This document shows positions 14,848 to 55,700 of a DNA stretch of 64,000 nucleotides, in pieces. Position numbers and translations under genes: made by a program. The notes below the pieces were generated by a model. That model had not been told where the DNA came from and did no database searches. It saw only the letters and a program-made list of their open reading frames with translations. Origin of the DNA: Mytilus galloprovincialis (lineage: Eukaryota; Mollusca; Bivalvia; Mytilida; Mytilidae). The stretch is taken from positions 1,736,001-1,800,000 of the forward strand of contig NC_134843.1 of the NCBI RefSeq assembly GCF_965363235.1. The letters are read 5' to 3'. Numbering within the stretch: the first letter of the stretch is position 1; every line of letters begins with the position of its first letter.

Positions 14848-14853
14848 AGATCC

Positions 14854-26760: not shown

Positions 26761-27186
26761 CTTTACATCAATACAAGTTTTGTTTAAGTTCGGATTTTAG
26801 AGCGAGATACTCTTATATGCAAGAATTACACTTAACATAGATCTTAGCTGTAAATGTTTAAATCAAACCGAATCTAAAACAATGAGAAAAGATTAAACAC
26901 CTACTTTCAACACATAATTCCCTGAATATCAAAACATATAGATATGAAACCATACAAGTAACACATAAATAATATGATGACCAAAAGTCCGAAAAGAACA
27001 CACATGAAGCTGTACTATAGAACTGTTCGCCTAATTTGCTTCAATTTATTGAAAACGGCAATAAATCAAACAGACGATTAAAGTTGCTGTACGATTATAC
27101 GAGTCCACAGTCTATGTTGAAGTCTTGGTCCTCTGACCTGTTGAACTTTAAAAAGTCATTTTATTCCGCAATGGGACAGTGGTAAG

Positions 27187-30311: not shown

Positions 30312-32218
30312 TTATACGACCGCAGAGGTCGAACCCTGAACAGTTGGGGCAAGTATGGACAAAACATTCAAGCGTGATACAGCTCTGAATTTGGATTGTG
30401 ATCAAATATTTGACATTACATGTTTTTTTTTACACAAAACAAATGTCAAGATTTTACAAATCAATTAAAGATTTCTTCTTCAAACTTTTTAAATCTAAAA
30501 TTAAATAGTTGATCATGACACAGCATAGGTTTCTGACACAGAACGAATGTGGTCTAATGAACTTAAAAGTTTTTTTTTGCCTTTGAGCAATTCACTATGC
30601 TGTTGAATATTAATCCTCTCAAAAAAATGTTTGAAGAAATTTTCTTTTTATTTATTTTATGAAATCTGAAATGAGAAAAATTTAAACCCCCCCCCCCTTT
30701 TTTCACATCCCCGTTTCCCTTTTTCCAAAACTGATATCAATTCAAATTTCTAATGGAGTTGAGTTTGCAACAATAACTACTCTTTTAAATACATCATAAA
30801 ATATTAAAATGTAAAATAAAGTGCTTGTTATCACTGAATGGTAAAGATTGGTTGGTAGTAAAAGTGAAAATACATTGTTTATTGTATAAAACAATAAAAA
30901 AAACTTCATCAGCAACATTTTATATTGGCAAATTTCCAATGAAGTTATTTACATAAAGTTATTGGCAAATAAAAAAGAAAATGACATCATAGTCATGTCT
31001 GGCAAATGTCCAACATACATTATCTAAAAACATTTTAGATAAGATAAGGAAAAAAAGCTTCATCAGCAACATTTTATATTGGCAAATTTCCAATGATGTT
31101 ATTTACATAAGGTTATTGGCAAATAAAAATAGAAAATGACATCATAGTCATGTCTGGCAAATTTCCAACATATATTATCAACTACTATTCTATACAAAGA
31201 AAGATAACTCCAATTGAAAATTAATTGCTATTGCACAATATTGTGCAATTAGATATTTCTTGCTATTGTGCAATACTGTGCAATTGAAAATTTCTTGCTA
31301 TTGCACAATACTTGATATGGAATCCTGATTTGGACCAACTTGAAAACTGGGCCCATAATCAAAAATCAAAGTACATATTTAGATAAAGCATATCAAATAA
31401 GCCCAAGAATTTAATTTTTGTTAAAATCAAACTAAGTTTAATTTTGGACCCTTTGGACCTTAATGTAGACCAATTTGAAAACGGGACAAAAAATTAAGAA
31501 TCTACATACATAGTTAGATTCCGCATATCAAAGAACCCCAATTATTCAATTTTTGATGAAATCACACAAAGTTCAATTTTGGACCCTTTGGGACCCTTAT
31601 TCCTAAACTGTTAGGACCAAAACTCCCAAAATCAAACCCAACCTTCCTTTTATGGTCATAAACCTAAATGCTTATTTGGGCCCTTTTTTGGCCCCTAATT
31701 CATAAACTGTTGTGACCTCAACTCCAAAAATCAATCCCAACCTTCCTTTTGTGGTCATAAACCTTGTGTTAAAATTTCATTGATTTCTATTTACTTATAC
31801 TAAAGTTATTGTGCGAAAACCAAGAATAATGCTTATTTGGGCCCTTTTTTGGCCCTTATTTCCTAAACTGTTGGAACCAAAACTCCCAAAATCAATCCCA
31901 ACCTTCCTTTTGTGGTCATAAACCTTGTGTCAAAATTTCATAGATTTCTATTCACTTAAACTAAAGTGATAGTGCGAAAACCAAGAAAATGCTTATTTGG
32001 GCCCTTTTTGGCCCCTAATTCCTAAAATGTTGGGACCAAAACTCCCAAAATCAATCCCAACCTTCCTTTTGTGGTCATAAACCTTGTGTTAAAATTTCAT
32101 TGATTTCTATTCACTTTTACTAAAGTTAGAGTGCGAAAACTAAAAGTATTCGGACGACGACGACGACAACGTGATAGCAATATACGACCAAAAAATTAAA
32201 ATTTTTGCGGTCGTATAA
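30312..32218 (-). repeat. Two-kb dispersed repeat, copy 2 (inverted)
   Basis: Same family as 239-2195 in opposite orientation, with the same 13-bp inverted ends (TTATACGACCGCA at 30312, TGCGGTCGTATAA at 32206-32218). Similarity extends to about 30286 ('ccacagggcgcagc'). Differences: an extra duplicated segment of roughly 170 bp (about 30885-31195, 'cttcatcagcaacattttat') and about three rather than four 180-bp units. Confidence 0.85.
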
Positions 32219-34012: not shown

Positions 34013-34174
34013 TCATATACAGAAGTTGTTATCATTGTTAAGATAATTCTCTATTGCCTTCTGACATTCCGTTGATGGCCATCTCTCCAATAACAGATTA
34101 CACTCCGATTCATTGGTTAGTTCTATTTTTGTTCTCTGGTGACTTCGAATCAATAGTTTGGTTGTCTCTAAAGC
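34013..34174 (-). CDS. CDYL: CDYL exon 7 (C terminus)
   Basis: Acceptor ttttcag at 34176-34175. Encodes ALETTKLLIRSHQRTKIELT through LLLERWPSTECQKAIENYL and ends FCI. The equivalent ECI2 exon has [14 protein letters not shown], showing homology, but CDYL lacks the SKL tail. Confidence 0.93.
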   Translation of the reverse strand, partial: ALETTKLLIRSHQRTKIELTNESECNLLLERWPSTECQKAIENYLNNDNNFCI

Positions 34175-37100
34175 CTGAAAAGAAAGATTGTATAAGTCCA
34201 TATCAATGATCTGCTATAAATCAACGATTTAAAAATCATCAATTACATCAAGTACTAAAGATTGAGATTTCTCCTTAGTACAGAGTCTGCCACCAGAATG
34301 ATGCTCTGAAGTGGCTTTTTCTATGGTTAGTGTTTTTAAAATGTAATTGATGATTTTTAACTCGTTGATTTGTTTTGAAAAGACAAACATTTATTTCTTT
34401 CTTATACATCAGATTTGTCAATATTGCATAACATGTTCAATCTTCTTCTTTTTCTACACTGATACAATGAAATGAGACAGGAATTATTTTTCTGATCTAA
34501 AGAAGTATGTTTGGAAGGGGAAATAACTCTCAAAACCATGGTTGTTTATTGTGACAAATGAAAAATTAAGATTTTTCAATAAAAATAAATACTTTTTTTT
34601 TTTTTTTTTAGAAAAGTGGTAGTTATGTACAGCAAAACAATACTATTTCTTTTAACTTAAATTGGGTTTTATTATATTCTAAAAGCTTAGATAAATGTGT
34701 GCAACTGGAAAATAAAAATTTCCATTTTTCAGCATTTTTTCAATTCAAAAACTTTATATTTGATTTTCCTATAATATTCCAAAATAGTTCAAATTGGTGG
34801 CATACTTGAGCAATTTTCCATAGTATTTTTTAAAAATTTATATACAAGTTGTTATTCAGCTTATCATGTGTAAAAACAGTGTTTTCACCTACACAGTTGA
34901 CCCTCCATAAGAAGCACATATTTTGTTTACCTTGCCTGACTGTAGGGCCATGTTTTCTATTCTAGGTATGACTTCTTGCATGATACTGGTAGGCCAGAAC
35001 ACCTGTGATACCAGACCAAGTTGACACGCCTCAATAGCTGTGATCTTCCGTCCTCCAATCAGTAATTCATTAGCCTATAATAATGGGAATATTTTAGCAT
35101 TACATTCAAGATATCAAGAACGTCAAATTTAAACACTTTTGATACACATCAATCATGCATATTTTCTAAAGATAGGATCTTGAATGCAGTTCATAAAAAA
35201 ACACAAACAGAAGAAAATAAAAATTTTGAAATTGTGATTGAGCGATTATTGCAACAATTTAAAAGTGCCTCCTCTCAGTATGGTACATATTTTATTGGAA
35301 CATCAGTGAATACTGATAAACACCAATTATTAGTTAAAATTTTTCTGTAACAACATTCAGTTTTTATAAAGTATCTTATTGTATGTAGCTGTAAACAATA
35401 CTAACCATGGCCATTCCAACTGTGGTAGGTAAGAGAAATGACGCACATCCTTCTGGTGTTTGTGACAGCTGCGAGTATGGTAAATGGAATGAAGCTTTAT
35501 CGCTGGCGTAGACTATGTCACATAGCGGGAGCATGGTCATCCCAAGACCTATGGCAGATCCCGTCACTACAGCTATCAAAGGTTTGGGAAATGTGATGAG
35601 AGCTTTCATAAAATCCCTAAAAGAAAATTTTAGGCAAATAACTAATACATTTTAGTAACAAGCATACTGTGAGTATTGCATGGCAATACATAGTCCCTAC
35701 TGGTTAAAAATTCACTGTTTTGGAACAAAATTTTAACTTGATCTACAACTTGTCATGGTGTCAACTATATATCAAATATCAAGTCAATATCTTCAAGCAT
35801 GACAAAAGAATAGTTAAAAACTGATTATTTAAGTGACTTCAGTTAAGTCCAAGGACCATAACTCTGCACAATCTTCAGACAAACTTCGAAATTATGTGCT
35901 AAGATTAAGAATACCTTTTATTTCACTGCATCTACTTCATAATGATTACCTTTCACTTAATCAATGAAATGAAATATTTTACCAATTGCTCAGTTTGTAG
36001 AGATGAGTTTATATTTAGTTTGATTAAACGTTCAAGTAAATTAGTAATGTGAAAGGACAATAAACAGAGACAAATAATACAGGGTGAGGCACATCCTTTT
36101 TATTCATATATGTGGCTATGATTATGTTTACCTGAGAGCATCCACCATTTTTCTTGCTGCCATTTTCCTATCCATTGAATTTGAGATCAAGTAAGTGAGA
36201 TCGATACCACTGCAGAACACATTCCCTAGACCACTGAACATGACTAGATTACTATCGTCATACTTCGCTGAGTTCAAAGCTGACACTACTTCTTGTATTA
36301 CCTAAAACATAGAACAAGACATTCATACATAAAGGCTGTATGACTGCCTACAACTGCTCACATCACCTTCATTTGAACTTTGGTGGGTAGTTATCTCATT
36401 GGAAACCATATCCCATCTCCTTATTTTTATATAACATATGCATATTAGATTGCTGGCAACATATGCGGTCAATTTCAAAGTCTACATCAATATAATACAG
36501 ATGAAAAATTATGTATTATTGATGGTATTAAATAAAAGCAACAATACATAACTAATACAACATTATGATGTAATACATTGACATTTATTCAGAAATGTGG
36601 GAAAAATCAACAAATTCTATTCCGTAAGAAAAAGATTTAGTATGTGGAAAGAAGTGATGAGAGCTATTAAGAATAAAAAATTTGTAAGGGTTCCACGGAA
36701 CCCAGTGTCTCGCCTACTTTTGCTGTTAATCGCAGACTCAACAAAAATGAGGAAAAACATCAATAAAAATTTCCCTCTCGATACTGTCTTTTGATTGAAA
36801 GAAGCTTCCAAGTTTGGTAAAAAATCCAGGATAGTTTATGAATCTAATAAATGTTTTATAAACTTTAACTGCAGACTGTATGTAATGTTAACTGGAAGAA
36901 AAACTAAGTCCATTTATAAGTAAAATACGGAAAAAGTGATTTTTTTTTTACAAAATTTACTTCTGAATAATATCTTATGATCAGAAACAAGCTTTTGTCT
37001 AAGTTTGGTAGAAACCCAGGATAGTTTAAGAACATTATAAAAATTTTAAAACTTAAACCACAGAGTGAATGTTTTGTTTCTGGCAAAAAAACTAAGTCCA

Positions 37101-40100
37101 TTTATAAGTAAAATACGGAAAAGTGGAAATTTATTTTTACAAAATTTTCTTCTTGATACTATCTTATGATCATAAACAAGCTTCTGTCCAAGTTTGGTAC
37201 AAATCAAGGATAGTTTATGAAAGTTATTAAAATTTTAAAAACTTTAACCACAGAGTGAATGTAATGTTTCCTCGCAGAAAAACTAAGTCCAATTATAATT
37301 AAAATACGGAAAAAATGGAATTTTATTTTTACAAAATTTACTTCTGGATAATTTCTAATGATCATAAACAAGCTTCTGTCCAAGTTTGGTAGAAATTCAG
37401 TATAGTTTAAGAAAGTTATTAAAATTTCAAAAACTTTAACCACAGAGTGAATATTTGTGGACGCCGCCGACGACGACGACGCCGACGACGACGGAATGTA
37501 GGATCGCTTAGTCTCGCTTTTTCGACTAAAGTCGAAGGCTCGACAAAAATATCTTTATCTACCACCAAACTCCTCTTATACCAATTTAAAGAAATATATT
37601 TACCTGAGGATTAAGACAATTTTTTAACTTTGAATGTGTATTTAACCAGATCTGTGTATATCGGTTACACTTCTTCACAACAATCTCTTTATATCGGTAG
37701 GCACATTCACTTTGTCTAACACTCATTCTCCGTTCCACATCATCTTCACGCACCATTTCTTCTTCTCGTTTCTTGCTGGACTTCTTCGTGTGAAACTGGA
37801 AAGGGAGACTATCAAGTAACATTTTGTATGACATTGATGAAGGACTGATAGGAATCATAGCGGGTACATAGTGATACCCTGCAGGTACATCTGCACAAAG
37901 TGCATCCATGGCAACCATGGGTCGAGCATGTGTAGTAGACATTATAGGCTTGACTGATGTGAACACAGGAGTTGGTGATACTGGTCGAACAATTGCTGTA
38001 AATATAAAATAATAAAGTTTAAAATATATTAAGAAAAAGAAAACAAAAATCCTAAAGATCAGCTAATATCTGCAAGCATAACAAAATTATTTAGAAAGTA
38101 CAGAAAAACAAAATGCTAGACTATGATGTAAATATCATGACAATATTTCCAACAGCTTGGTGCAATTCAGCATCAGATATAAGAAAGCAGCATAAATCTT
38201 TTTGTATTTTTTTTTATATTCCTTTAGAATGCTCTAAATGTATGAGCCTTAGTTGTGTTATCAATATGATAAAAATTTGAAATGTTTCATCATCAGGATC
38301 ATGGATATTAAAGCCATTCAAATGACTCTCCTAATAAGTTCTATCATGACTCTAAGATATGTACATCTAATTATAAGGAAAAACATTGTCGAAACATCTT
38401 TTACTTATTTTAACAGAATCTATATGTCAGCTGTATGTATCAACTTGATACAAAAAAGGTTGTATACCTGATTTTGAGACTCCAGGGTGAGGTTTTACTG
38501 TGCCTGATTTTGAGACTCCAGGGTGAGGTTTTACTGTACCTGATTTTAAGACCCCAGGGTGAGGTTTTACTGTACCTAATTTTGAGACTCCAGAGTGAGG
38601 TTTTGCTGAACCTAATTTTGAGACTCCAGGGTGAGGTTTTACTCAGTGTTTTCCATTCGGCATTGAAGCCGGGTGTGCCGACCACCTTCTTTTGAAAGCC
38701 GACCACCTTTTGATTTTAGGAGGTGGTCGGCTTTTTTTTCAAAATCCGGCTTTTTTTCGGTTCCGTACCGTTAAAATTTGAATACTAATCCCGCCTTGTT
38801 TTCATTGACAAAGATGGCGTCCAATCGTCAAATTTCAATGTTTTCATTAATCAATCGGGGGAAAGAAAGGAAGATGACGATGATGATAAAGAAAATACTA
38901 GACCAAATAAGTTAAATAAAATTGATAGTAATGTTGAAGTTAAGGAAATTGAACAAAAATCAACCAAACAACGGAAAAGACACGCAAGTGAAGACAAATA
39001 TGAGCAAGACTTCAAAATGACTTATAGTCACAGAGGAAGGATACTACTGTTCTGTGTGCCAAAAATACGGCACAAAAGCAAGAAACAGAACAGAAACCTG
39101 GATCGAAAGGCCTTAAATCCATGCTGATGCATAAAATTGTAAATGAAAGAAGAGATAAAAGAGATAAATTTTTGAAAAATAAAATCAAAGAATATTTGAC
39201 AATTAATATGACTACTTCTATTTATGTTTGTTCAACTCCATAAAATGTGAATATTATACTAATCTTTATTTCTGTGACCCCCACGTGCACCCACAGTAAA
39301 TTAAAAAAGGTTGGACATTTAAAAAAAACCACCCGGTTGCAAGTTATTTTTTTAAAACACCCACCTTACCTTAGTGAAAAAAGGAAAACACTGTTACTGT
39401 ACCTGATTTTGAGACTCCAGGGAGTTTTCACTGTGCCTGATTATGAGACTCTAGGGTGAGGTTTTACTGTACCTGATTTTGAGACTTCAGGGAGCTTTTA
39501 TAATTGTGCCTAATTTTGAGACTATGGTGAGGTTTTACTGTACCTGATTTTTGAGACACCAGAGTGAGGTTTTACTGTACATGTACCTGATTTTGAGACT
39601 CCAGGGTGAGGTTTTACTGCATCAATTAATCTCATCTTCTTTATATTGGATGATGTCGTTTCCATTGGACGAACTTTCACCTGCAGAGTCTTTTTACCCA
39701 TTTCTTTTATTATCTTGCTAGGACTCTCCATCTTTTTCTCATTTTCTGGTCTTTTTGGTGAATTGTCAGTTTTAGCTTTCTTAGATTTTGGAGATAAAGA
39801 AAATTTGACTTGAACATCATCATCAGACTCAGTGTCTATGATTTCAATACAATCTTCCAACTTCCTCTTTACTCCTTTTACTTTTATTTCTTTCTTCCCA
39901 TCTTCATTGTTTTTCTTTTTCACTTTCACTTTTTTCCCTTCATTCATATTTTGTTTCTTTATTTTTTTCCCATCTGCCTGATCTTTTGTTTTGATTTTTT
40001 TCTCTTTCTTTTTGCCTTCTTTGTTTAACTTTTCTTTCTTTACTTTCAATGATATAATTTTTTTCTTCACAATTTTCTTCTCTCCTTGAGAAGCCTGAAT

Positions 40101-43100
40101 CTCTGTGTGGACTTTTTCCTGTGCAGCACTGTTATTCATATCTTGTAAAGTTATATCTTTTGTTTCAGCTTCAGAACACTCGCTCTGACTTGAAGCACTT
40201 AATTCACTTTTCTTTTCCTTTTTGATAGCTGGTCTCATTTTAACTACCAACAAATTCCCTGTTTTCTTCATTTTAAAGTTTTTATCTGATGTTTTTAAAG
40301 TTTTACCTCCTAGCGATTTCTTAAGATTATTCTTCAAACTTGTACTTTTAGTTTTGTTTCCAACTTTAGAGGTTTTCTTTTTATTTCCTCCCAGTAATTC
40401 CTGATCTGATCTTTTCGTGTATTTCCTTTTAATTTTTGTACTACTCTGAGAGTTATCAGATTTATTCTGAGTTATTTGGTCACTTTCTTTGTCACTTTGC
40501 AAAGCATCTGTGGTTTTGCTACTGTTTAATGTCACTGAACTCACTGTGCATTTCTTCAGTTTTACACTAGCATGCATACAAGGACTGTTAATTTTACTTT
40601 GTTTCGTAGGAACAGGGAGGCTAGTGGTAAGTAAAGTTCTTAAAACACTTGGAGAGTTAACCTTTGAACTCTGAACACCATTTGACAATATTTTACTAGA
40701 ACTTTTAATAAACATTTTTGATGGATCAAAATACTCTTCAAGTTTGGAAGGTTTCTTTGGAGTCCTTTTAGTTGTAGTAATAGGTGTTGATACCCCTTCT
40801 TCCAACTTTCTGGGTTTAGGTGAACATTTTGGTGATTGTGTTGGTGATTTTGGTGACTTAGGTGATTTAGGTGACTTCTTAAATGGGGTAGAAGTAAGCA
40901 CGCTTGTGTCCACTGATAGGTTAAGGCTAACATCCTCATTTTTAACAATAGCTGCATGCTTCAGTAAAGCTTTCTTAATATTATCACTACCAGAGTTCAA
41001 TCTCTTGGCTTTCTTCACAATCTTTAATGCCTCTTTTCTAGCCAGTTTTGACTTTTCAACATTTGTTTTGGTAGTAACAGTATCATGTTGCTTTTCCTGA
41101 AATTCAAGGATTAAGTTAAAACAATCCAACAAATTGTCTACTGGTTCCCAGGTATTCCAGTCTTCATTGAAATTCTTCCACTTGACAAAAAACTGCAGTT
41201 GTCCATCAACCTCTCTCTGTTCCAATATGTTTTCCACCTAAAAAATCAATAATTTATATTTAGCCCTAAATGTATTTTCCGATTTAAAACAATTTAATTA
41301 ATACCAGAGCTAAAATTAGAAAATTGAATATATAATAAACATGATATAGTCAAGTTACTGCAATTATTATTGTCAATTTTCTTGGAAAAATCATAGTTTT
41401 GTGTAAGTAAAGTATGATACTGTTACAGTGTAGGGAGTAAGCTGTAGGTTTGTACATACGACTCTTTCGGGCTATACATATATACTCAGTAAACATGTAA
41501 CAGCCGCTATGTTCCGTCAGTTACTTTGTTCTGGCGGAACTTTTCAACTAGTTATTTTGTTACGATGGAACTTTCCAACTAGTTGTTTTATTCCGAGTGC
41601 AGTCAAAAAGTTCCTGAAAAAAGTAGCTAGTTGAAAAGTCCCGGAACAATGTAGCTAGTTGAATAGTTCTGGTGGAACAGAAAAACTAGTTTATTCGGTC
41701 AGAATGTTGCCTTAATAACGGAAAAAGTTCTAATTTATTGTTATACATTAATCTGAAATTGATATTTTTAAAAGTATCCAAATGAGGAGGAACTTTTGGG
41801 CTAGTTTGTTAGTTCCGGTTTTGACTAATTTGCCAAAGAGGAACTTTGTGACTAGTTCCTTTTGACTTTTGTAATCAGTATCTTGGTTCCCCTTTGAAAG
41901 ATTCTAATATAATATGTTGTGCTTTTACTTTGAATCAATTCTCCAAATGGAACTTTGTGACGGGTTGATAAGTTCCGTTGGAACTTTTGGGCTAGTTTGT
42001 TAGTTCCGGTTTTGACTAATTTGGCAAAAAGGAACTTTCTAACTAGTTGATATGTTCCGTTGGAACTTTTCAACTTATCACTTTGAACAAGGTAACTAGT
42101 TAATAAGTTCCTGTGGAACTTTTCGGCTAGTTAGTTCTTTCCACCTGGAACTTTCCAACGTCGGAACAAAAGAGCATTTTCACCTTCGTCGTTTACTGTT
42201 AGCCAACTCGTATACAGACATTTGATGAACATTGTGAAGACTTATATATTGTAATTGGATGTAAATATTGTTAGTAAGGTCTCTGGGAATAATAATATAG
42301 AGTTCGTCTTCACTGTTCGACCATGGGGGTCCCCTGACTGAACGACTGTTCCCACCTTCTGGTTTCCCTTATTTCACACGTTACCCCTTTATTACCTTGT
42401 TATCTTATTAGTGTAAGTCATGAATGTTGTAACCGAGGCCCATACAAGCTAAGAGTAAGCTTAGATAAGTCCCGTTTGTCGATTTCCCGACTAGACAGAG
42501 TGTCAACATTTCGATCGCCGCCATTTGCATCATTATTTTTTATTGACGTCTTTGACCTAATAACCTGAGATCAGCATCCAATTAGCATAATGTAATTTCT
42601 CCATAGGGGCACAAGACGTTGGTGGGACAGATGTATAAAAGCGAGTGCAGAACAGTCTTCAGATGGACTGCAGGCCGCTACCAGGGCAGTCACTCCTGAT
42701 ACCAAGGAAATTACCCGAGCAAACCAAATGCGCCACAATTGATGCAATACATGTACCTTTGCTATTGTATGCAGCCCCGTTGACTAAATGGACCAAACCA
42801 TGATTGACCTAGATGTTTTACTACGTTTACTACGTTGTTGACAAAAGAATAACTTACCAAAAAGGGGGGTCTCTGTATATTTTATTAAGTGCTCTGGTGG
42901 GAGTTTATGCGTTGAAGCTCTTTTATTGATTTACATGTACATAAATGATGAACTTTTATAAAGAAATTTCAAAGCAGACTTAAATAGAACATAAATTACA
43001 AAATTTTATTGATAAAAATTATTCACTATTAAAATAAAAATATTCCCGCAAAATTTTCCATACCATTCATACCATTTCTTTTTTTTAATAAGGTATCAAT

Positions 43101-43618
43101 ACATTTTAAATGACGACTCTCCAGAGACGGATCTAAGGTCATTTCATGACAAAATTCACATAATGACACAACTATCAAATAACAGAATAAGGGATATTCT
43201 GTTAACTTACAATTTTATTTGATATAAAAAATAATTAGCAACTTGTTCATAAAAGATAAATCTTATATATTAGACTAAAATATGAAGAAGTTACAGGATA
43301 ATTAGAAGTTCTAAAAACAAAATTTTTCAAAGCCTTATTTTTCTTCTAATATTCATACAAAACTGTATCTCTAAGTAAATAATGTTACATAAGACTGGTG
43401 TAGGTACCGGTTTATTTTAGGTAATTGGATGAACCTTTTTCAAAACTGACAGCTGAAACATAAAAAGAAAAAAATCTTTATGCAGATTTACTAGTCTTGC
43501 TTTAAATTGATCATTTAGAAAACATATCTATCTCCTTAACTTGTCATATGCGTTCCAAAATTGGTTGTTTATAAAGATCTCAGGTTTTTTTTACCTCGTA
43601 AACTTCGTTTTCCGCCAT
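34013..43618 (-). CDS. CDYL: Chromodomain Y-like protein (chromodomain plus crotonase fold)
   Basis: Exons 43618-43595, 41237-39587, 37995-37604, 36301-36132, 35616-35406, 35074-34931 and 34174-34013; 2754 nt, 917 aa. CDYL proteins read methylated histone H3 tails, recruit co-repressors, and have been reported to act on crotonyl groups. The chromodomain (about 6-57) begins EVYEVENILEQREVDG and keeps an aromatic cage, Y7, W28, F31. A long Lys/Ser-rich linker (58-560) has KSPKSPKSPKSP. The crotonase-like domain (about 650-900) contains FPKPLIAVVTGSAIGLGM and the QTPEGCAS motif with Glu801; I recall Asp at this site in vertebrate CDYL. All exon phases agree (0,1,0,2,0,0). The start MAENEVYEVE parallels vertebrate MASEELYEVE; an in-frame ATG 51 nt upstream (43669) is less likely. 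It is head to head with ECI2 and probably shares its promoter. The linker makes it longer than the roughly 600 aa of human CDYL. Confidence 0.95.
34931..35074 (-). CDS. CDYL: CDYL exon 6
   Basis: 144 nt, phase 0 at both ends, exactly the length of ECI2 exon 9. Encodes ANELLIGGRKITAIEACQLG, then LVSQVFWPTS; vertebrate CDYL has the similar LVSQVFWPGT. Confidence 0.95.
35406..35616 (-). CDS. CDYL: CDYL exon 5 (crotonase core)
   Basis: 211 nt, equal to ECI2 exons 7 plus 8 (121 + 90). Encodes DFMKALITFPKPLIAVVTGS and, further on, LCDIVYASDK and SQTPEGCASF. The donor is GTTAGT. Glu801 is GAA at 35453-35451. Confidence 0.95.
36132..36301 (-). CDS. CDYL: CDYL exon 4
   Basis: 170 nt, starting phase 0 and ending phase 2, corresponding to ECI2 exons 5 plus 6 (176 nt). 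Encodes VIQEVVSALNSAKYDDSNLV followed by MFSGLGNVFCSGIDLTYLI; CSGIDL occupies the place of the first oxyanion-hole loop. Confidence 0.95.
36590..37550. repeat. Dispersed repeat of about 180-bp tandem units in a CDYL intron
   Basis: Begins near 'aagggttccacggaacccag', has about four units with 'aactaagtccatttataag' and 'aagcttctgtccaagtttgg', and ends with a GAC/GCC trinucleotide run ('gacgacgacgacgccgac', 37465-37495). The architecture resembles the 2-kb repeats (tandem units next to a GAC/GTC run), though the units differ. Open frames here are repeat artefacts. Confidence 0.75.
37604..37995 (-). CDS. CDYL: CDYL exon 3
   Basis: 392 nt. Acceptor atttacag; the first two bases complete a codon begun by the final G of exon 2. 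It has two parts: a linker (IVRPVSPTPVFTSVKPIMS) and the first strands of the crotonase fold (YRYKEIVVKKCNRYTQIWL, ending CLNPQ). Vertebrate CDYL has a similar YRYRDIVVRK. Confidence 0.93.
38466..39622. repeat. 36-bp minisatellite spanning the CDYL exon 2 splice donor
   Basis: Eleven copies of a unit read on the plus strand as 'cctgattttgagactccagg' plus 'gtgaggttttactgta': five at 38466-38643 and six at 39399-39620. The copy at about 39587-39619 is the real end of CDYL exon 2, coding VKPHPGVSKS before the donor. The other ten lie in the intron, and most repeat the donor (TCAG|GTACAG or a variant). The array is split by the hAT-like element at 38644-39393. Confidence 0.9.
38644..39393 (+). 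mobile_element. hAT-like element with a transposase N-terminal relic
   Basis: Terminal inverted repeats CAGTGTTTTCC / GGAAAACACTG, flanked on both sides by TTACT (38639-38643 and 39394-39398). Removing the insert and one TTACT restores a normal minisatellite unit, so insertion is certain. Inside, an ATG at 38814 opens MASNRQISMFSLINRGKERK, and after frameshifts the segment at 39037-39113 encodes GYYCSVCQKYGTKARNR, resembling the TTF-type zinc finger found at the start of many hAT transposases. The rest of the transposase is missing, so the copy is non-autonomous. A 5-bp duplication is unusual for hAT (normally 8), though a 5-bp subgroup exists to my recollection. Confidence 0.8.
39587..41237 (-). 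CDS. CDYL: CDYL exon 2 (chromodomain and linker)
   Basis: 1651 nt, starting phase 0 at GTG (41237) after acceptor tttttag and ending phase 1 at TCAG|GTACAT. Encodes the chromodomain from VENILEQREVDGQLQFFVKW, then about 500 residues rich in Lys, Ser and Thr. Past this donor the frame stays open only to 39522. The donor is chosen because only this copy of the repeated donor keeps exon 3 in frame. Confidence 0.93.
41238..43594 (-). other. CDYL intron 1: degenerate tandem repeats and a possible LTR
   Basis: At 41.5-42.17 kb imperfect repeats of 'ggaacttttcaactagtt' and 'ttagttccg' alternate in both orientations. At about 42.43-42.80 kb a less AT-rich stretch contains a good TATA box (gtataaaagcgag, about 42633) followed by 'gcagaacagtcttcag', as in a retrotransposon LTR. 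No coding exon seen. Confidence 0.5.
43595..43618 (-). CDS. CDYL: CDYL exon 1 (MAENEVYE)
   Basis: 24 nt, ATG at 43618-43616, ending GAG|GTAAAA, phase 0. Joined to exon 2 it gives MAENEVYEVENILEQR, a standard chromodomain start. The initiator lies in ATGGCGG. Confidence 0.92.
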
Positions 43619-43655
43619 TGGGATTATGGTCGATAGGTGGCGCGTTTGTTTGAAA

Positions 43656-43708
43656 ATGGCTGCCTCCATAGGGAGGACTTTTCAAAATCACATTTTCACC
43701 TTCAAGAA
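43656..43708 (+). CDS. ECI2: ECI2 exon 1 (targeting sequence)
   Basis: 53 nt, ending AA|GTTAGT, phase 2. The two leftover bases join the first base of exon 2 to give Asn. The match of phase and presequence-like composition supports it; no stop separates it from the earlier ATG at 43626. Confidence 0.8.
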
Positions 43709-46700
43709 GTTAGTTTAATGAGGAAATGATAAGACTTTTATGTGTACATCACAATTATTTTTATAAGAATTATAATCTTAAGTTTCATAACCCTTTTGAA
43801 CTACATGTTACTATTGAAAAAGTTTACCTCTTTCTCAGTTTCTGATCAAAGTCCACTTTCTCACCAGGTATAAAGGAAGGTTAAGACCTTATGTTACAAC
43901 ACCGATTTATCTTCATATAACGACAAAGAAATATAAATTTTTGCCTTGCAAACTGATTATTGATTTATATTTTGAACCTGATTGGTATAAAGTTAATACT
44001 GACCGTGACAAGTACTTGAAGTATAGTGAGGTACATGTCTACTGAGATAACCTCTTGTCAGTATATGCTTCTTGTCCCTCATTAATGGACATCACAAAGG
44101 TTCCCAAAAAATGTTGAGTCTTTACGTCAAAATACAAATGGTCTGACGCCACAATGGAAAAGTGATAGTTGTATGGTCAATGTCAATAGTTCAATCGCAT
44201 TATCGTTGCAGATTCTTGGGTCTTTCCTTAACCGATAAATATCGTCAACAATGCAAGTTTTTATCTGTTTATGACTTCATTTACCAGATAGAGGGGATCA
44301 CCAGTATTCCTGCACTGTTGAAGTTAATCTTATTATCAAGCTTCTTCAAATTGTCATTATGCAGAATAAACTAGAAATAATGTTTGTTCCGTAGGAATTT
44401 AATCACAATTGCCTAATGACAGCAAAGCTCATGATCAATTATGCATATTTAATTTCCAAAAAAAATGTGCATTCTGCAAGTTAGCGTCATATTTATTGAA
44501 CAACTACATTGTAGCTTGACATGGAGCTCGCTATGGAAAGGAAGTGAACGCATAAACGATGTTACAAAATGTAACTAAAACCAAACTTTTTATTTGAAAT
44601 GCAACAAACTTGAAAGTTGTCTATTGAGACAGGAACTTTCAGCTTCAGCTAGCTTCTGAACAAAATTGTACTAACGAAAATAGACCTGATACTAAACTCT
44701 AACATACATGACATATAAATGAATTAAAATTTTAAAAAGATATTTGTAATTTTGTCCTGTATTTAAAACTGCAATAGTTTGTCACAAACCACAACAAACT
44801 TTGTAGTTATTGAGGACAAAATGATATACATTTTCATATTAAAAAAAATATTGATCAGTTGACTTTTGTATGAGTTATGAGTCAATGTGATTTTATAAAT
44901 CTGGTGATATTTTGTTGCCTAGTGACAATGTGGTTATGTGAGATTGCTCACAAAAGGTTCCTTGATTGCCTAATTAATACTATTTAATGAACATAATCAT
45001 GATTAAGTAAAATAAATTGCAACTTCAAAACTTATATTGCTAAGTGCTCAGCTGTATTAAAGTCAGAGAAAAGCAGAAAACTCTAAATTTAATCTAAACT
45101 GTATCACATGACTTTTTGTCGATTATATATATTTTGAAATTTACATTTTAATGGTAGATGTTACAGAAAGCAACAGATCAAATATTGATTCTTAAATTAA
45201 ACCATTAATTTTTCTTGTAGTGTACATTTTATGCCAACAAGAGGATTTCATAGATCAAGGCCAGTCCTAGGGGCTATGGATGCAGAGTTTGAGAAAGCAA
45301 AAGTTCAATTGAACACTCTCCAGAATGAACCTGGCAATGATGTCAAACTAACAATATATGCTTTATTTAAACAGGTAAGTGAACAAGGGAGAGAGGTAAA
45401 ATAATTAATTCATAGGCAGATCTACATCCAGGCAACATAAACCTTTCTTCAATTTGTCTTAATGGGACATTGGTGTCCTCTTAAAAATGAAAATAATGCT
45501 TCATAAATTTTTTGCGTCCAAAGTACTTTTTATGCATCACTTAGGGGCATTATTTATTTTTCAGTCTATGCGTCTGTTTGTTTGTTTGTCTGTTGGTTCG
45601 TTGGTCCGTTGGTTTTGTCTATCTGCCCTGCTTTAAGTTAAAGTTTTTGGTCAAAGTAGTTTTTGATAAAGTTGAAGTCCTATCAACTTGAAACTAAGTA
45701 CCGGTACACATGTTCCCTATGATATGATCTTTCTAATTTAAATGCCAAATTAGTGTTTTGACCTCAATTTCACGATCCACATAGGAAATGATAGTATGAG
45801 TGGAGCTTCCATGTACTATGGACACATTCTTGTTATTATATATTCATTCTGACATTAGTAATGCGTAAACCAAAAATTTGTTAAAGCCAAGGATGTACAA
45901 TTACTTTACTCGATGAGCTATATGACAGAAAAGGACCTAAAAAGATTAAGCAAATCCAGGTAAGGTTAACTTTGCATGAGGAAGTTTGAACCTCCGTTTC
46001 TTAAAATTTTGTTAATTATTCAACTGATTTAGATAAGTTGTAATGTAAGTTAGCCTCACCCATGTAAGTTAGCCTAAACCATGTAAGTTAGCCTAACCCA
46101 TGTAAGTTAGCCTCACCCATGTAAGTTAGCCTCACCCATGTAAGTTAGCCTAACCCATCATGTAAGTTAGCCTAACCCATGTAAGTTAGCCTAACCAATG
46201 TAAGTTCAACTTTGTCTCAATCCAAATGTAAGAAACAGTCAACCTAGTAAAAAAAGGGTTAATTAAATTTGAATTCATGTTCTCAATTGCTTAGCATATT
46301 TGTTCCAATTAACATTCATGATGATAAGTGGTTTTTGGGTGGACAAGATGATACACACATGCAAATGAAACATTATCAATGGAGAAATTTATAGCTGAAG
46401 TACATATCTGTCATAAATCAAGTCAATATGGAAACACTGACTACCAAGTCAGGAACCTCATCTCATCCAACAGTAGTTGTCATATGTCATATCTTATCAC
46501 AACCCAGTACAAGAAAAATGAAATAAAAAACCCACTGTATAAGATTGTTGTGTCTACTGTAAAACTTGTTAAACTGAACTTGTAAACTTCATTTAAAACT
46601 TGGTAATATTATACAGAACAGAAACATGTTTGTCAACTAACATTGTTATATGAAACGTTCTCTAGTTCAGCATCAATTAATATATATATATATATATATA

Positions 46701-49700
46701 AAAGAAGATGTGGTATGATTGCCAATGAGAAAACTGTCCACAAAAGACCAAAATGACACAGATATTAACAACTATAGGTCACCATATGGTCTTCAACAAT
46801 TAGCAAAACCCATATCGCATAGTCAGCTATAAAAGGCCCCGATATGACAATGTAAAACAATTCAAACGAGAAAAATAACATGTATTTACATTTTTCTTCT
46901 TTAAGGCAACAATAGGAAAGTGTAATGTTAAAAAACCAGGCATGATGGATTTTGTTGGTAAAGCCAAATGGGATGCATGGAACAATCTGAGTAATATGAC
47001 GCAGGTAAGGTTAATGTGAACAATTCAGCTGTTTATATAAAAAAGAAGATGTTGTATGATAGCCGATGAGACAACTGTCCACAAGAGACGCAAATGACAC
47101 AGAAATTAACAGCTATAATTCACTGTATGGCCTCCAACAATGAGCAAAGCCCATACCACATAGTCAGCTATAAGAGGCCCAGAATCACAAATGTAAAACA
47201 ATTTAAACGAGAAAACTAATGACCTAATTTTTGTACAAAAAATTGAACGAAAAACAAATATGTAACATAGCAGCAAACGACAACCACTGTGAAGGTTCTA
47301 AGGGCAAAATTCAATGAAATAATACTGGTAATATTGTCAAAGAGAAGTTAGCTGTTGTAAATTTTTAATGGCACTCTTGAATGATATAAAATAGTTAATA
47401 TAGTGTTCTCCCCAGGCCGTTTTAGCGTCGCTGTACCGCGACGCTATATTTTTTCACCGTGATGCTATAATAATTCCCGCGACGCTATAATTATTTTGAA
47501 GATGCTATTTTACCTGTCCTCAATTTCGAACTTTCATCGATTATGATCATAAAAAGTATATCGCCTTTAATTGTAATCTCTTTAAGTCGGACACTATAGG
47601 CAATTAAGAGATTAAATAGCTAGGTGTTAATTGCCCTCAAGGTGATAACTGTTTGGATGCGAATATCCCAAGCTGACACTTGTGACATGACTAATACCAC
47701 GTGTCTGCAATCACCCATTTCGACATGGGAAAATGCAATCACAAAACAATTCGAAATCTTCGTTTTGTATTAAGAAATTTCAAAGCTTGAAACGATTATT
47801 TTTTTTTTTTTAAAAGATCGTTTATTTGTGCAACTCTCCAAAAATTACTTTCTTTCTCTTCCGGTAATACGAGAGCGAGAATTTTGGTTTACAGCTAAAA
47901 TAAGTTTAATACTTCTTTAAAAAGTTACCATAATTGGCTTAAGTTTATGTTTAATCCATTTAATGTATTAAAAGCGTCTTATTCATTCACAATCTCTTGT
48001 CAAACAATGTTTATTCTCGGACTCATTTTCGTAAATTTTTCTACGGCCGCCATTGCACATTTTTGTGTAAACTACTGATAGGAACCGGACGAGATATGAC
48101 AAAAATCCGCATTTTCACGATAATGACAACAGATGGACAGTAGACAGAAAAAAATATACCAAGAGAGAAAACTACGCATTAACAGACTATTTGTTAGATA
48201 ACTTTGTTAAAAATACATATCATTTTAATGTAAAGATAAGAAACTACTGGGACTAATTCATTGAGTGCCATGAAACAATGAATTTCATAAACATGATAAA
48301 AAAAAGTTTTTAAATTGATTTTTTTTTTTGCTACTTTTGCTACTTTATCTTTACTTAATATAATATAAAAAATAGTTAATTTTGTGTACTAGATATTTAG
48401 TTTTGTATATATACAGGTTGCACTATAGGTATAATGAACCATTCATTCATTTGACTTATTGTTGGGTATTAAACTGAAACCACATATTTATTTTTGTTTG
48501 GCACAAAATGAAAAAAATAATTCTGTAACTATAAATGAATAAAGAAAACATAAACTGAAACAACTGTTTTTATGGTTATAGTTTAATTGTATTCTCAGTT
48601 ATGAATTGAACAATATAAACTAAAACATATAAAGGAAATAGAGCATCAACGTGACGTGTTAAATGACATTAAAAAAAATAGTTATTTTTTTTTACGCAAA
48701 ATGTGATGCTATCCAAAATTTCTGGGGAGAACACTGACTTCAGCAAAGATGGCTTGTGACTTGGAATACTGGATGTTTGTTTCATTTCGCAAGATTCATC
48801 AGTATTGCATGAATCAAATAGTTGGAAAACCAAAATTAAAAATAATTAATCAATCCATCCATTTCCAGAATAATGCTATTGAAATAAAATTGAATGATAC
48901 TATACTGTTACACAGGATGAAGCACAGAAGGCCTATATTGATTTAGTACATAGTTTGGCAGGTGAAGATAGTCCATCTAAAGCAGCGGCACCTTCAATAG
49001 AATCAGCTGGAAAGTATGAAACTGTTGCTGTTACATTGAATGATGGTATCTGTAAAATTACACTGAACAGACCAGCAAAGAAAAATGCCATCAATTATAA
49101 GGTTAAGTTTAACTTAACTTAAGTAGCACTCCATTAAAGCAGTGACAAAATCGTCTGAACCTGAACTATAAATTATATATTTAATCCTTTCTTAGTTGAT
49201 ATAAAAAAAACTTCATGTGATCTTTATCTATTTCAACCACTTTTTGTTTACAATTCATTTGTTAACATCAAAACTTTTTGTAAGACATTCTCTGATACCA
49301 AATTCAGTTTGAACCACCATTAGTCTTATCTAGAGACTCAGTCTGCCATGGTCATCTGTACTGGAAATGGAACAACACTAATTCATCCATTCATTCATTC
49401 CTTCAATTATCACCTATTACTCTTCAGTAACATGGTCTGTTGGGCCAATATACTGATGAAATGGTGCCATGGTGGTATGAGCGTCACTGATGAGTCTTAT
49501 GTAGACGAAACGCGCGTCTGGCGTACTAAATTATAATCCTTCCAGTATTATTATGGATCAGCTCTTTCAGTCTTTGAGAAATAGCTACCATTACTCAGGG
49601 CAAATGATATTTTATAACTGATGAGACTGATTCATGTCATTTAGACATTCCCATTTTAAGCTTATATTTACATCCTTAACTACAACACAGGATAATGGAA

Positions 49701-52700
49701 GAATAACATAAATTTTAAGAGATATTTCAATAGAAACAAATTCTGTGGAACCATATGTTATAAGGGAACAGCCTTACACAAGAATATATATTTTTTTAAA
49801 TCATGACATTAACAAACATTCATTATATTAACAGATGTATGAAGAAGTAGGCCTTGCTTTGTCCGAAGCAGCAAACGATAAAAACTGTACATTAGCTGTT
49901 TTGACAGGTATAAATATTTTTCTGTTTGTCTACAGTAATTCTATATTCAGTCAGACTGGATCAGGATCAACTGTAAGTGACTAGTAATACAAAATGTAGA
50001 TATATTATTGCGAACCCTATGATAGTTTTCCATAGATTCACCTGCAAGTTACCTGTCGATTTAAACTTTTGTAAGTTCTATTGTCCCATCTAACAAATAC
50101 AACAGGTATTGTTCTCTGTATAGTTTATTCACCAGGACCTTTAAATTTCTTCTAGGAGAAATATATCACTCGTTGATTAATTTACCTGACCAAAAAATTA
50201 TCTGTTTTTTTATTGAAATACTTCTATAAACTCACATAAACTGTATGCAATATTGTATTTATTCAATATATCATTAATATATTTTCAATCTGTTCAATAT
50301 AAAATCTGATTTAATAATAAAAAGTTTATTTTAGACACATTTTTTAGTATTTTCCAATGAATTTGCATGTTTTTTTTGTTAATTTGTAGACTATGTTTAT
50401 GAAGACCTTAATTTAAAAATAATAATATTCAAATTTTTATTTATCAAACACTCAAAAATATTTATTGAATATTTGATCAGAAATCAACTTTTAATTTTTA
50501 AATCATTATTAATATTGAACACATTAAAAACAAGTTTTTGGTATTGAATAAATACAACACCACATGCAGTTTTGTGAGTCCTTTCTTAGTATTGGTATAA
50601 GTATTTTTCCATCATTGACAGTTCAATTTTTTGTTCAGGTATATTAATCAATGAGTGATATATTTCTCCTAGAAGAAATTTAAAGGTCCTGGTGAATAAA
50701 CTATACAGAGAACAATACCTGTTGTATTTGTTAGATGGGACAATAGAACTGCCAAAAGTTTAAATCGACAGGTAACTTGCAGGTGAATCTATGGAAAACT
50801 ATCATAGGGTTCGCTATAACAGTTGTAATATTTCTAATCAAAGTATGTTTCGTTTGAACTCCATTCTTATTTGGTAAATATTTAATAATGATATCAAATG
50901 TTCTTGCTGTTCACTGAAAATTCTATTTGGAGGCCATGAAAAAGATGACCATGCCTTATGATGCACATATAAACAACACATCTTTTTGATGATCAGTGAA
51001 TAAGTTTGCCTAAATATCATATAAAAATCATTCGACTGGAGAAACTGATTCTACCATGAATTATTGTAAAATACAAAATTTCTCCACACTCATCAGTTTA
51101 ATTTCAAATATTTAAAAAGCTTGGCAAGCCACGAAATTCTAACTGTCTGGAGAGGGGAAATATCGCATCACACTTAATGCAGAGGTAGAATTATTTTTTT
51201 CTTATTTATTATGCATTTAAAAGAGTTTTTTACCAGTTTAATATATTTTGATAAACCACATGTTTAAACATTGTGTATTTTGTGTTGTAGGTGCCGGCGA
51301 TTATTATTGTAGTGGCAATGATTTAAGTAACTTCATGAACATCCCATCAGATGGCATTGGAGCTATGGCCAAACAAGGAGGCGACATATTAGAGTAGGTT
51401 TCGATTTGAGAAAATGGCAGCTTGATTAACTAAAATGGAATATCATTCCTTGTACAAATGTAATAAGAAATTCATTCAAAAATGTAAAAGTACTGTGAAT
51501 TCATCATTTTTTGTTGGATACCAATTTTTGTGGATTTCGTAGGTACAGGTGAACCATGAATTTAAATGTTCAATGAATGACAAATTTTTCTATATAGGTT
51601 TGTATGCAGACTTTATAATTTATTTAAAATATGACTTATGATTTGTTTAATTTTGAAATAAGAAAAAAATGGTAACAAAGTATATTGTTTAATTTTGTAG
51701 AGCATCTTTTCGTCTAGTTAAATGAAAACCACTACCCTTTTTAATTCCCAAGTTATGTTTCACTGTTACTAAGTGATATGTATGTTATTTTCCAGGAAAT
51801 TTGTGAATGCTTTTATAGACTTCCCTAAGCCATTAATTGGACTAATCAATGGACCAGCAGTTGGTGTTTCTGTTACTGTCTTGGGACTTTTTGATGTTGT
51901 GTATGCTTCAGATAAGGTACAACTAAACCATGCTTTACCCATAGGTGTCCTTTGGCTGTTTTCTACTCTTTGTTCCAGTTGTTGTCTCTTTAACTTTATT
52001 TGAAAGTATAGTGTGGGAAGATTTATTTTATTGATCACACTAAATAATTTATAAGTTAAATTTTACAATTTCCTACCTTTTTTATGCCCCCATTGTAACA
52101 GAGGGGGCATTATTGATTATTAGATAGTTATAAGGACCCTGCATTGGGGAACGGGAGCACTATAGTTAACTCTCCCGTCCAAAATTTTTCGTAAATGCAA
52201 AAATTACAAATGTATAGGTAGGAAATTTTACCCTTGACAGATGTTGTGCATAATATGTTAATGTCATACTATATTGAGGTGAAACAATCTATTTAATTTT
52301 TGGAAAAGCTTTGTTTTTTATTAAAAAAAAATCATAAATTTTGAAAAAGAAAATCTTCTTTCAATAGGATTTTAACAAAAACTGATATTCATATGCATTC
52401 CAAATTGTGTACTCTAGTCAAAATTGTGTACTCTAGTCAAAATTGTGTTAAAAACTTAGTATTTCTTGAAAAATGATAAATTGTAATATTATATTTAATG
52501 AAAAAGGTTCTCTGTGTCACAATTATTGGTTGCCCACCATTTACAAACAATACCTTCCAAAATACTAGTCCTAGTGCTTGGATTTTAACAAAAGATATAC
52601 GGTATTAATGGAAAACACATCCTGAATCAATTTCTGGTGTCAAAATTGACTATTTATGAGCATTTGCTTTTTATGCATCAGTCTCTTTGTCTGGCACTTG

Positions 52701-55700
52701 CTGACATGTAAGTTTTTTCTAGCTTTCTCTAGTTTAATATGTATGGTCCATGTATTCTGTTTATTTCAAATCAAACAGAATCAAATCTTATTTAAGATAA
52801 CTTCAGGCTAAACAACAAAGACACAAACTCAGATCTAATTGAAACAAAAACTTTCCAAGCAAGAATGTACAACTGGTTTTGTATATAATTTTAGGCCACA
52901 TTTCACACTCCATTCTCACAGCTAGGACAATCACCAGAGGGCTGCTCATCCTATGTATTCCCAAAGTTAATGGGAACAGCTAAGGTATATATGTGTATAA
53001 ATTTAATTCCTTATTTCAAAAGATGTGAAATTTTGGTCACAATTTTCTAAGGATCTACAAATCAAATAGTTCCAAAACTTGTAATCAGGCTTCATGTTGC
53101 CATGTTCTATCTGTTAAATCGTTTCATGTCTTACTGTTAAATCATTTACAGTTTCATTGCCCATCAACTTGTACATTCCGCCACGTAATAGCAATTTTAT
53201 CTTTTGTTATTTTACACAAAAATGAAATGTATTATAGATTCAAATATTACATCCTTGTTTCATAAAGGGAGATAATCAATAAATGTATTATAAATGAAGC
53301 TATAGAAAATTTACCTATTTTGTTAAATCTGTAAAGAAAACGAGTACCATGTTTGTGGTAGATTAAAACTGATTTGACAGGAAGTAACATTGATTAAGAA
53401 AAACTTGACCTTGGTTAAGATAAAGTTCATATTCTATTCAATTCTAAATAACACAGAACACAATTTTATATTATTCACTGTTGATTTTTTTCTCACACTG
53501 ACAGTATACAAACACAAAATGATAGTTAACATGTAAAATACTAAATAGCATAAACACACATATTTTAGAAAAAATATACCGACAAAACACGGGAAAGTTG
53601 ACTTATGAAAGATACATTTTTTTACCATCTGTTGACTTCTATTTTGTTAACAAGATGTTTAACTGTCAGAGGAAAGGGAAATTTTATTTGATTTTTATTA
53701 TCAAGAAAAGATAAAATACGATGAAATCAAGCAAATCAAGAAAAGTTTTTTTCAGAAGTTATTTTATATTTTGTTTATTTGATCTGATGAAGTCCAATAT
53801 GGCTCAAAAGAATTATATTTTGAAATGTTTGCTATATCTATAGTTTATTATACATGTATATTAATTTTAAATAAAGGAATGTCAGTAAGAAACACTCTTA
53901 TTTTCAGGCTAGTGAAATGTTATTGTTCAACAAGAAGATTACTGCTCAGGAGGCGTGTGATAGAAATCTTGTGAGTGAAGTCTTCTCTAATGATGTATTC
54001 CAGAAAGAAACAGAAGCAAGAGTACAGCAGTATGCAAAGCTGCCCAAAATAGTAAGTTATATAGACAAATAGTTGGCAATATTCATACCCTACTTTGAAA
54101 ATTTGATAAAAGACTAGAATTATTATTTCAGTTATTCCAAGTCTAAAATTGCCCTTGAAATTTGAAAAAAAATCCTTGAAAATATATTTAATTTCTAATG
54201 TTGAGTAAGGTGTTTTGAAACTCAATTGAATCCTCTTTGCAATTCCACATCTGTTGGGAAATTACTTGTTTACTAATTGAATCATTTGTTAGTGTCCTTT
54301 ACAGCTCCAAGTTACTGACCTAGAGTATAAGGCCGTGTTCACACCAAACGCCATGCACAGTAAACTTGTTTACAATTAGTTTAATGTACTGGACATTGGT
54401 TTCACATTAAATTTGTTCACATCTATACACCTTGTTTAATTACCTGTACATAAGATTTGTTCACACTTGTAAATTCTATGTCATTTAAATGTTCATTACG
54501 TAGAACCGAATGCAAAGTTTTCGGACAACTTTTCTAGCAGTAAGGGAACGACCATTTGACTTCAAAACGGGGGTGGGGGTATCAAATGGAATATTCCGAA
54601 CTCCCAAAAAAGGTCCTACAGATGATACAAAAATATTCTAAATCAAGAGTTTCCCCATACATTATAGTGTTACATGTTAAAAAAAAATTGATTACCAGCA
54701 TCGAAAAAAAACCGGAATAAAACGTTTGCGCGGAAAAATTTCTGGCTCAGATAAATTAACAAAATACCCCCCACCCCTTTCTTTAAGTTAAGTGGTTGCT
54801 TCTTTATGAAAGCCAGTTTGATGATTTGCAGTTGTTTAAAAATAATAAAGATGTCTCGATTAAGCATTAGAAAACGTAGGCTGAAGCAGCGTGCTTACAG
54901 GCGAAGAATATATATTTTTATTCTCATAAAGCCAATGCATTACATCGGTACAGAGATTGAAGGAGAAGAAGAAATGATATATTAGGGATCACTATATTCC
55001 TATCTTTTCTGTTTGTTTCAAATGGTATTTCTTCTTCAAGGAGTATTTGGCAAAGGGAGGGGTAATGGTTTTTTTTTAGTTTTAAGGGTAATTTAACGGA
55101 TCCGAGATACATGTACTAGACAAACAATACATTTACCTCACACTTTTTAAGCAATGCATTTATGAGTGAATCGTTGTTTGAGTAATGACCAGTGGCAAAC
55201 ATTTCTGTGCAAGTCAAGTCGATTTGGAAAGACCTTAATTTTCAAATGAATTATGTGTTCGGCAATGATGCTGCTTTGAGTCTTGATAAGGGCTGAATAA
55301 AGCTACGTTAAGTTTAAAAAAAAAATATATATATCAAGTTTAGACAAATATTTCTGTAAAGAACTTTATTAATAATTGTTATAAATATCAATTTTATTCA
55401 AAAATTGTTTCTTCCTTAAATATACACGATGAAACTAATGTTTTAAATGCCTAGTTTTGTGTACACTTAATCTACACAAGGCCTACATCGAGTATCGACT
55501 GCATGTAGACAAAACATGTTTTACACTACATGTAAACATTGAATTTTATCAATGGGAACGTAATTTTGTTTAGTTTACGTGTGATTTACACTTACACAAC
55601 ACCGAGTTTAGGTCAATGTGAACACGGCCTAAGTTTTTTGTAAAAAGATAGGGAACCCTTATTTTCATGCTCCCACCGTAGTGAAGGGAGCTTTAAAGTT

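Follow-up and report, generated by a model that had tools for sequence, protein, structure and literature searches.

Our main finding is that ECI2 and CDYL, two adjacent protein-coding genes of the mussel Mytilus galloprovincialis, are paralogues at the DNA level that lie head to head with 37 bp between their start codons, and that a single putative promoter is likely to serve both of them. We regard it as fairly probable that the pair is an ancient inverted duplicate and that, in the mussel, approximately 100 bp around the gap constitute one bidirectional core promoter. The window analyzed here is the whole stretch of 64,000 nucleotides that contains the two genes (contig 6, positions 1736001-1800000, of a genome of 1.38 Gb in 331 contigs); within it, the original prediction concerned the interval limited by the outer ends of the two first exons (43595 and 43708).

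Two intact genes arranged head to head

Both coding sequences were assembled from splice sites and reading frame, and all introns are of the GT-AG type with consistent phases (Table 1). The identities predicted for the two genes were borne out by the spliced models, by Pfam domains and by the best PDB chains. CDYL combines a Chromo domain (52 bits, residues 7-57) with an ECH_1 domain (123 bits, residues 681-910), as do members of its family, and its best PDB chain is 2gtr. In ECI2, a presequence is followed by an acyl-CoA-binding domain (ACBP, 103 bits, residues 38-113) and then by a crotonase domain (ECH_1, 138 bits, residues 144-385), which is the layout of the ECI2 family; the best PDB chain, 2f6q, is itself an ECI2. 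Both genes are open throughout, and a pseudogene or a prediction artefact is ruled out.

The orientation is divergent, as in bidirectional pairs, and the distance of 37 bp was found to be exact to the base: the A of the CDYL ATG is at 43618 on the minus strand and that of the ECI2 ATG at 43656 on the plus strand. Both start codons lie within first coding exons, with weak candidate acceptors upstream on either side. An in-frame upstream ATG had also been claimed for each gene, and both are present, at 43669 for CDYL and at 43626 for ECI2. Around the gap, the search for repeats returned nothing but short matches of 16-32 nt, one of which (21 nt, 86%) links 42167 to ECI2 exon 1 (43683). Elsewhere in CDYL, 36-bp tandem repeats at 38465-38643 and 39394-39619 resemble the 3' end of exon 2, including its splice donor, and the modelled end of this exon (39587) falls inside the second array.

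Table 1. Coordinates, in the window, of the two genes and of the features around the gap
Feature	Position	Strand	Basis or remark
CDYL, 7 coding exons, 917 aa	43618-43595, 41237-39587, 37995-37604, 36301-36132, 35616-35406, 35074-34931, 34174-34013	-	Spliced model; gene 34013..43618
CDYL exon 1, coding part, 8 codons (MAENEVYE), phase-0 donor GTAAAA	43595..43618	-	Model; counterpart of mammalian MASEELYE
CDYL in-frame leader from upstream ATG at 43669 (17 residues before MAENEVYE)	43619..43669	-	3' part corresponds to MRHLSTINP in M. coruscus P0069
Gap of 37 bp, putative shared core promoter	43619..43655	.	Flanked by the start codons of CDYL and ECI2
ECI2 in-frame leader from upstream ATG (MVDRWRVCLK, before MAAS)	43626..43655	+	M. 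edulis model P0076 starts here
AAAATGGCTGC, YY1/TISU-type motif across the ECI2 ATG	43653..43663	+	Pattern search
ECI2 exon 1, coding part, 53 nt, 17 residues, phase-2 donor GTTAGT	43656..43708	+	Model
ECI2, 10 coding exons, 393 aa	43656-43708, 45221-45374, 46906-47004, 48916-49101, 49835-49907, 51291-51393, 51796-51916, 52895-52984, 53908-54051, 57651-57809	+	Spliced model; gene 43656..57809

ECI2 and CDYL are paralogues at the DNA level

The two mussel proteins have the same residue at 103 of 291 aligned positions, and all four introns in the crotonase part of CDYL share both alignment column and phase with introns of ECI2 (columns 184, 243, 314 and 362; phases 0, 2, 0 and 0, respectively). 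ECI2 and CDYL, which had been proposed to be paralogues, are therefore paralogues at the DNA level. The crotonase domain of ECI2 has six introns in all, and the two extra ones, of phases 1 and 0, are absent from CDYL. When the ECI2 protein was compared with the mussel's own genome, no second copy of ECI2 was detected at E <= 0.001 among the best 20 candidates scored: of the 10 matches, nine fall on exons of ECI2 and one on an exon of CDYL, all at this locus.

In a tree of 40 chosen rows, whose bootstrap was unsettled, 17 ECI2 rows formed one group (100/100) against 21 CDYL rows. The CDYL rows did not make up one side of a branch, but only because a root drawn from a very distant outgroup lands among open forks; the two multifunctional proteins used for this rooting (P0074 and P0075) were rejected as too distant, with a branch length of 3.84 on each side. 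Splice junctions of these genes have been compared before: according to the fly HIPP1 paper (PMC6385973), Cdyl shares three junctions with Hipp1 and one with a gene of the fly that stands closer to PECI. Moreover, a table of mitochondrial duplicates dates the duplication of PECI (ECI2) and CDYL, the same as that described here, before the divergence of animals, in a passage that gives neither gene order nor promoter (PMC3091328).

The pair is linked in most animals examined

Linkage was read from protein tables in which each cluster comes with its longest contig, an identical size in bp being taken as the same contig. The count covers the 25 species that are named, with a contig size and under one name per cluster, among the matches listed for CDYL and again among those for ECI2 (120 matches per listing at most; a profile search for CDYL listed 120 of 789, mostly vertebrate); species present in one list only or lacking a contig, such as Callorhinchus for ECI2, were left out. 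Among these matches, CDYL and ECI2 reside on identically sized contigs in 23 of 25 species, that is, all 12 bivalves, six of eight other molluscs, and one brachiopod, one nemertean, one amphioxus, one sea star and one gecko. Two species do not match: Babylonia areolata has the genes on two distinct large contigs, and Physella acuta has them on contigs of 1.0 and 0.25 Mb. An equal contig size stands for linkage, not for orientation or distance, and the head-to-head layout was read in the mussel only. As for conservation of the arrangement in other molluscs and beyond, which had been put forward for checking, linkage held among the species counted, apart from Babylonia and Physella.

Two mammalian tables also list the two genes next to each other. 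A candidate-gene table for pig chromosome 7 places ECI2 at 2.42-2.45 Mb and CDYL at 2.85-2.97 Mb with none listed between them (PMC11639466), and in an OMIM gene table for human 6p25.3-p24.3 the two are successive in one column (PMC7479479). Since the genes are linked in nearly all species counted and are listed as neighbours 0.4 Mb apart in the pig, ECI2 and CDYL are paralogues of ancient linkage, close together in the mussel and loosely spaced in mammals (about 0.4 Mb in the pig table); a shared promoter is therefore not required everywhere. The human genes are presumably divergent too, as we take ECI2 to be on the minus strand and CDYL on the plus strand. Chance closeness is ruled out by the paralogy with shared introns together with the linkage.

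Shared ancestry and slow chromosome change could nevertheless account for linkage alone, without any selection for co-regulation, an explanation that we consider rather unlikely. Ancient linkage groups make same-chromosome linkage common among bilaterian genes; most of the other species counted show the same chromosome at most, which such groups alone would provide, and mammals keep the two genes apart, as in the pig table. Nonetheless, both genes are carried by a single scaffold of 343,514 bp in Saccostrea cucullata, and by one of 619,110 bp in Lingula, and in Sinanodonta the pair has consecutive locus tags (ACJMK2_010355/010356), which is more than same-chromosome linkage. The pattern of conservation at the N-terminus of lophotrochozoan ECI2, where the first residues are kept, unlike the remainder of the presequence, argues in the same direction.

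Promoter motifs and composition around the gap

A YY1/TISU-type motif had been predicted across the ECI2 start codon. Its YY1-type part stands: AANATGGCNGC occurs at this place and at two others in the window, in CDYL exon 4 and in an ECI2 intron, three matches in all, where 100 shuffles gave 0.18 on average. The TISU reading fared less well: it is weakened by the M. edulis model P0076, which begins at the position corresponding to 43626 (see below). At the ECI2 start, GAAAATGGCTGC agrees in sense orientation with the TISU consensus, which we take to be SAASATGGCGGC, at 10 of 12 positions (2 mismatches); taken alone this match is weak, because at up to three mismatches the window holds 49 such sites against 34.8 expected. 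The claim made for the other gene was also correct in part: the CDYL start, ATGGCGGAA, does contain ATGGCGG with its YY1 core, but has CC instead of the AA of the motif at -3/-2.

Sixteen promoter patterns were scanned over 43540-43760. ATGGC, the YY1 core, occurs on either strand near the gap, together with GCGGAA, the CCAAT core and GGCGCG, and matches to strict CCAAT, strict E2F, CRE, NRF1, SP1 and TATAWAWR were not found in this interval. The description of the promoter as TATA-less thus holds for TATAWAWR, but TATAAA occurs twice, at 43570 (plus strand) and 43573 (minus strand), against 1.3 expected. A TATA-driven ECI2 start at about 43600, from the TATAAA at 43570, was considered and is unsupported, the pattern being about as frequent as by chance.

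Base composition at 43560-43700 is not that of a G+C-rich promoter or a CpG island, with a GC content of 0.40 and 6 CpG in 141 bp; this number of CpG is reached by 4.8% of such stretches of the window and marks a modest local peak. G+C-rich CpG-island promoters are typical of vertebrate bidirectional examples and are no requirement. A CpG-rich patch is found at 42376-42620, in CDYL intron 1, with ATGGCGGCG at about 42524 on the minus strand, and may be an alternative CDYL promoter. Factors reported to be enriched at bidirectional promoters include YY1, GABPA, NF-Y and E2F (PMC10887517).

Are the first coding exons the true first exons?

The N-terminus of ECI2 was examined in 22 lophotrochozoan models and that of the window, models that start at the acyl-CoA-binding domain being left out. 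A start with MA is seen in 19 of these 23, with MAA in 17 and with MAAS in 15; serine occupies position 4 in 16, Babylonia having MATS. The Biomphalaria glabrata model P0146, outside this set, starts with MASV. Conservation of the presequence resides chiefly in its first four residues: among the 19 models with an MA start, entropy is 0.6-0.8 bits at positions 3-4 compared to 2.3-3.3 bits at positions 5-25, a comparison in which the choice of MA starts fixes positions 1-2 and leaves positions 3-4 free. The 120 ECI2 proteins listed, mostly vertebrate, include 71 MA, 40 MAA and only 18 MAAS starts, so that the full MAAS signature is mainly lophotrochozoan. Such conservation fits a constraint at the DNA level around the ATG (ATGGCNGC), and could have a protein-level cause as well.

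Models of CDYL were examined in the same region. In the first list, 44 of 73 start with MA and 41 fit MA....(Y/F)EV; in the third, made of further models, 71 of 106 start with MASEELYE or a near variant, and the other 35 have other first exons. Two mouse isoforms join MASEELYE to different sequences, VESIV in P0220 and QNNVV in P0292. Because this mouse unit is spliced to two different continuations, the boundary of CDYL exon 1 appears to be conserved from mussel to mouse, as judged from protein models.

Splice acceptors upstream of the two genes were scored with a model trained on 15 true acceptors, for which leave-one-out scores range from 2.0 to 10.0, with 12 of 15 at 5.3 or more. The candidates upstream of ECI2 (plus strand, 43519-43584) score 3.4, 2.6 and 2.0, and the candidate upstream of CDYL (minus strand, 43699) scores 5.1. 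On account of these scores, noncoding exons upstream of ECI2 or CDYL are unlikely.

These data bear on a second explanation, according to which ECI2 and CDYL are close neighbours and not one regulatory unit: at least one of them would have a noncoding first exon or a start elsewhere, and the gap would not be a promoter. CDYL, for instance, could start at ATGGCGGC in the CpG cluster of its intron 1, or in an exon beyond 43699. Consistent with this explanation, the candidate acceptors on both sides score within the range of true ones, and about one-third of the further CDYL models do start without a MASEELYE-type exon. We nevertheless hold it to be unlikely, in view of the prevalence of MA....YEV-type and MASEELYE-type starts in the two lists, of the low scores before ECI2 compared to those of most true acceptors, and of the motifs gathered at the gap (the YY1-type motif, along with GCGGAA, CCAAT, GGCGCG and the YY1 core of either strand).

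Models from two congeners extend into the gap

The M. edulis ECI2 model P0076 has ten extra N-terminal residues, MVDRWRGCLK, whose counterpart in the window is MVDRWRVCLK; with this ten-residue leader, the window's ECI2 differs from P0076 at 11 of 403 residues. In the M. coruscus CDYL model P0069, MAENEVYE is preceded by MRHLSTINP, where the window reads TRHLSTIIP, and the alignment of this model with the searched CDYL region, which spans 25% of the region, shows 100% identity. MVDRWRVCLK and TRHLSTIIP are antisense readings of the same bases of the window. The segment of the gap is thus read ahead of ECI2 in M. edulis and ahead of CDYL in M. coruscus. If the database models correspond to real transcripts, the 5' ends overlap, and such overlap would argue against a TISU leader of 12 nt. 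By definition, the TISU element is located at +5 to +30 of the transcript, with a median leader of 12 nt (PMC2518114), whereas the start of P0076 implies a leader of 30 nt or more ahead of the ATG of MAAS. The M. edulis database model thus suggests that the ECI2 leader is longer than the TISU type, with 5' ends that possibly overlap.

A competitive switch, in which antisense-overlapping 5' ends would make transcription of ECI2 and CDYL mutually exclusive on each chromosome copy, and fat oxidation anti-correlated with CDYL-dependent chromatin states, would agree with the two models crossing the gap in opposite directions, with a gap that is presumably too short for two separate pre-initiation complexes, and with a review (PMC10887517) in which 23% of divergent human promoters (within 1 kb) have 5' ends that overlap, but it is very improbable, as both congener models are predictions and a lowering of expression by 5' overlap was not confirmed in 73 human start-site libraries (PMC8076222).

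A putative bidirectional promoter inherited from a probable inverted duplication

Our preferred explanation remains that of an ancient inverted duplicate with one core promoter. Before bilaterians radiated, an enoyl-CoA delta isomerase gene would have given rise to a second copy placed head to head with it, and one of the two would have turned into CDYL, with a chromodomain replacing the acyl-CoA-binding domain; the head-to-head layout would then extend beyond mussels. In the mussel, where the two first coding exons are back to back, the 100 bp or so around the gap would act as a TATA-poor, YY1-type bidirectional core promoter, with YY1 at the ECI2 start codon, perhaps joined on the side of CDYL by ETS, NF-Y or E2F-like factors. 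The bound factors would keep one patch open, from which polymerase could fire either way. Because two pre-initiation complexes would not fit in 37 bp, each start site is probably inside or beyond the first exon of the other gene, which would give overlapping 5' ends, or else firing alternates between the two directions. The two genes would have drifted hundreds of kb apart in mammals.

More tentatively, ECI2 and CDYL may be among the oldest bidirectional pairs of paralogues still in existence, produced by an inverted duplication on the bilaterian stem or earlier. A YY1-centred core promoter over the ECI2 start codon, seen today as MAAS, might then have coupled metabolism to histone marks through most of animal evolution, until vertebrates separated the genes.

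Comparison with known systems

COL4A1 and COL4A2 are likewise head-to-head paralogues, conserved as a pair across metazoans with few exceptions, and their bidirectional promoter is named in titles cited by the same article (PMC12141075). The two cases differ in that COL4 chains assemble in one trimer, whereas ECI2 and CDYL belong to different compartments, and in that the head-to-head pair is metazoan-wide for COL4 but known here from the mussel alone for ECI2/CDYL. A second likeness is to the 372 ancestral bidirectional promoters of an amphioxus study, which were disentangled in vertebrates (PMC6292497): these too involve old divergent neighbours that are tight in an invertebrate and apart in mammals, and a legend of that study mentions YY1 motifs at ubiquitous amphioxus promoters. 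The difference is that our two genes are paralogues. By analogy, ECI2/CDYL would fit this amphioxus set, with the addition of paralogy as in COL4A1/COL4A2. Finally, ECI2 resembles TISU genes, among which mitochondrial functions are enriched (PMC2518114), by the sense YY1-type motif across its start ATG with two mismatches to the consensus, but it departs from them in that the M. edulis model starts at the upstream ATG.

No description of the ECI2-CDYL arrangement was found in the part examined of the open-licence literature on CDYL with ECI2 or PECI. The arrangement suggests that CDYL originated beside its parent isomerase gene, inverted relative to it and perhaps sharing its promoter. If this is true, a shared switch would have coupled enoyl-CoA metabolism to histone marks, both their reading and their editing, CDYL being reported to act as a crotonyl-CoA hydratase. 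In vertebrates, CDYL is a co-repressor. Species with a tight pair and species with the genes apart would constitute a natural experiment on the co-regulation of a metabolic gene and its chromatin cousin. CDYL is itself called a crotonyl-CoA hydratase in the title of a paper cited by PMC6385973.

Other features of the window

Two C2H2 zinc-finger reading frames, at 8570-10942 (minus strand) and 14842-17106 (plus strand), are divergent, about 3.9 kb apart, and have similar N-terminal blocks (NQEI.I.G.P.Q ... LPDGTVQ); they are possibly another head-to-head paralogue pair. A 25-bp satellite of about 63 copies occupies 27186-28753, and arrays with a 161-bp unit lie at 340-934 and 31666-32140, their consensus sequences appearing to be mutually reverse-complementary.
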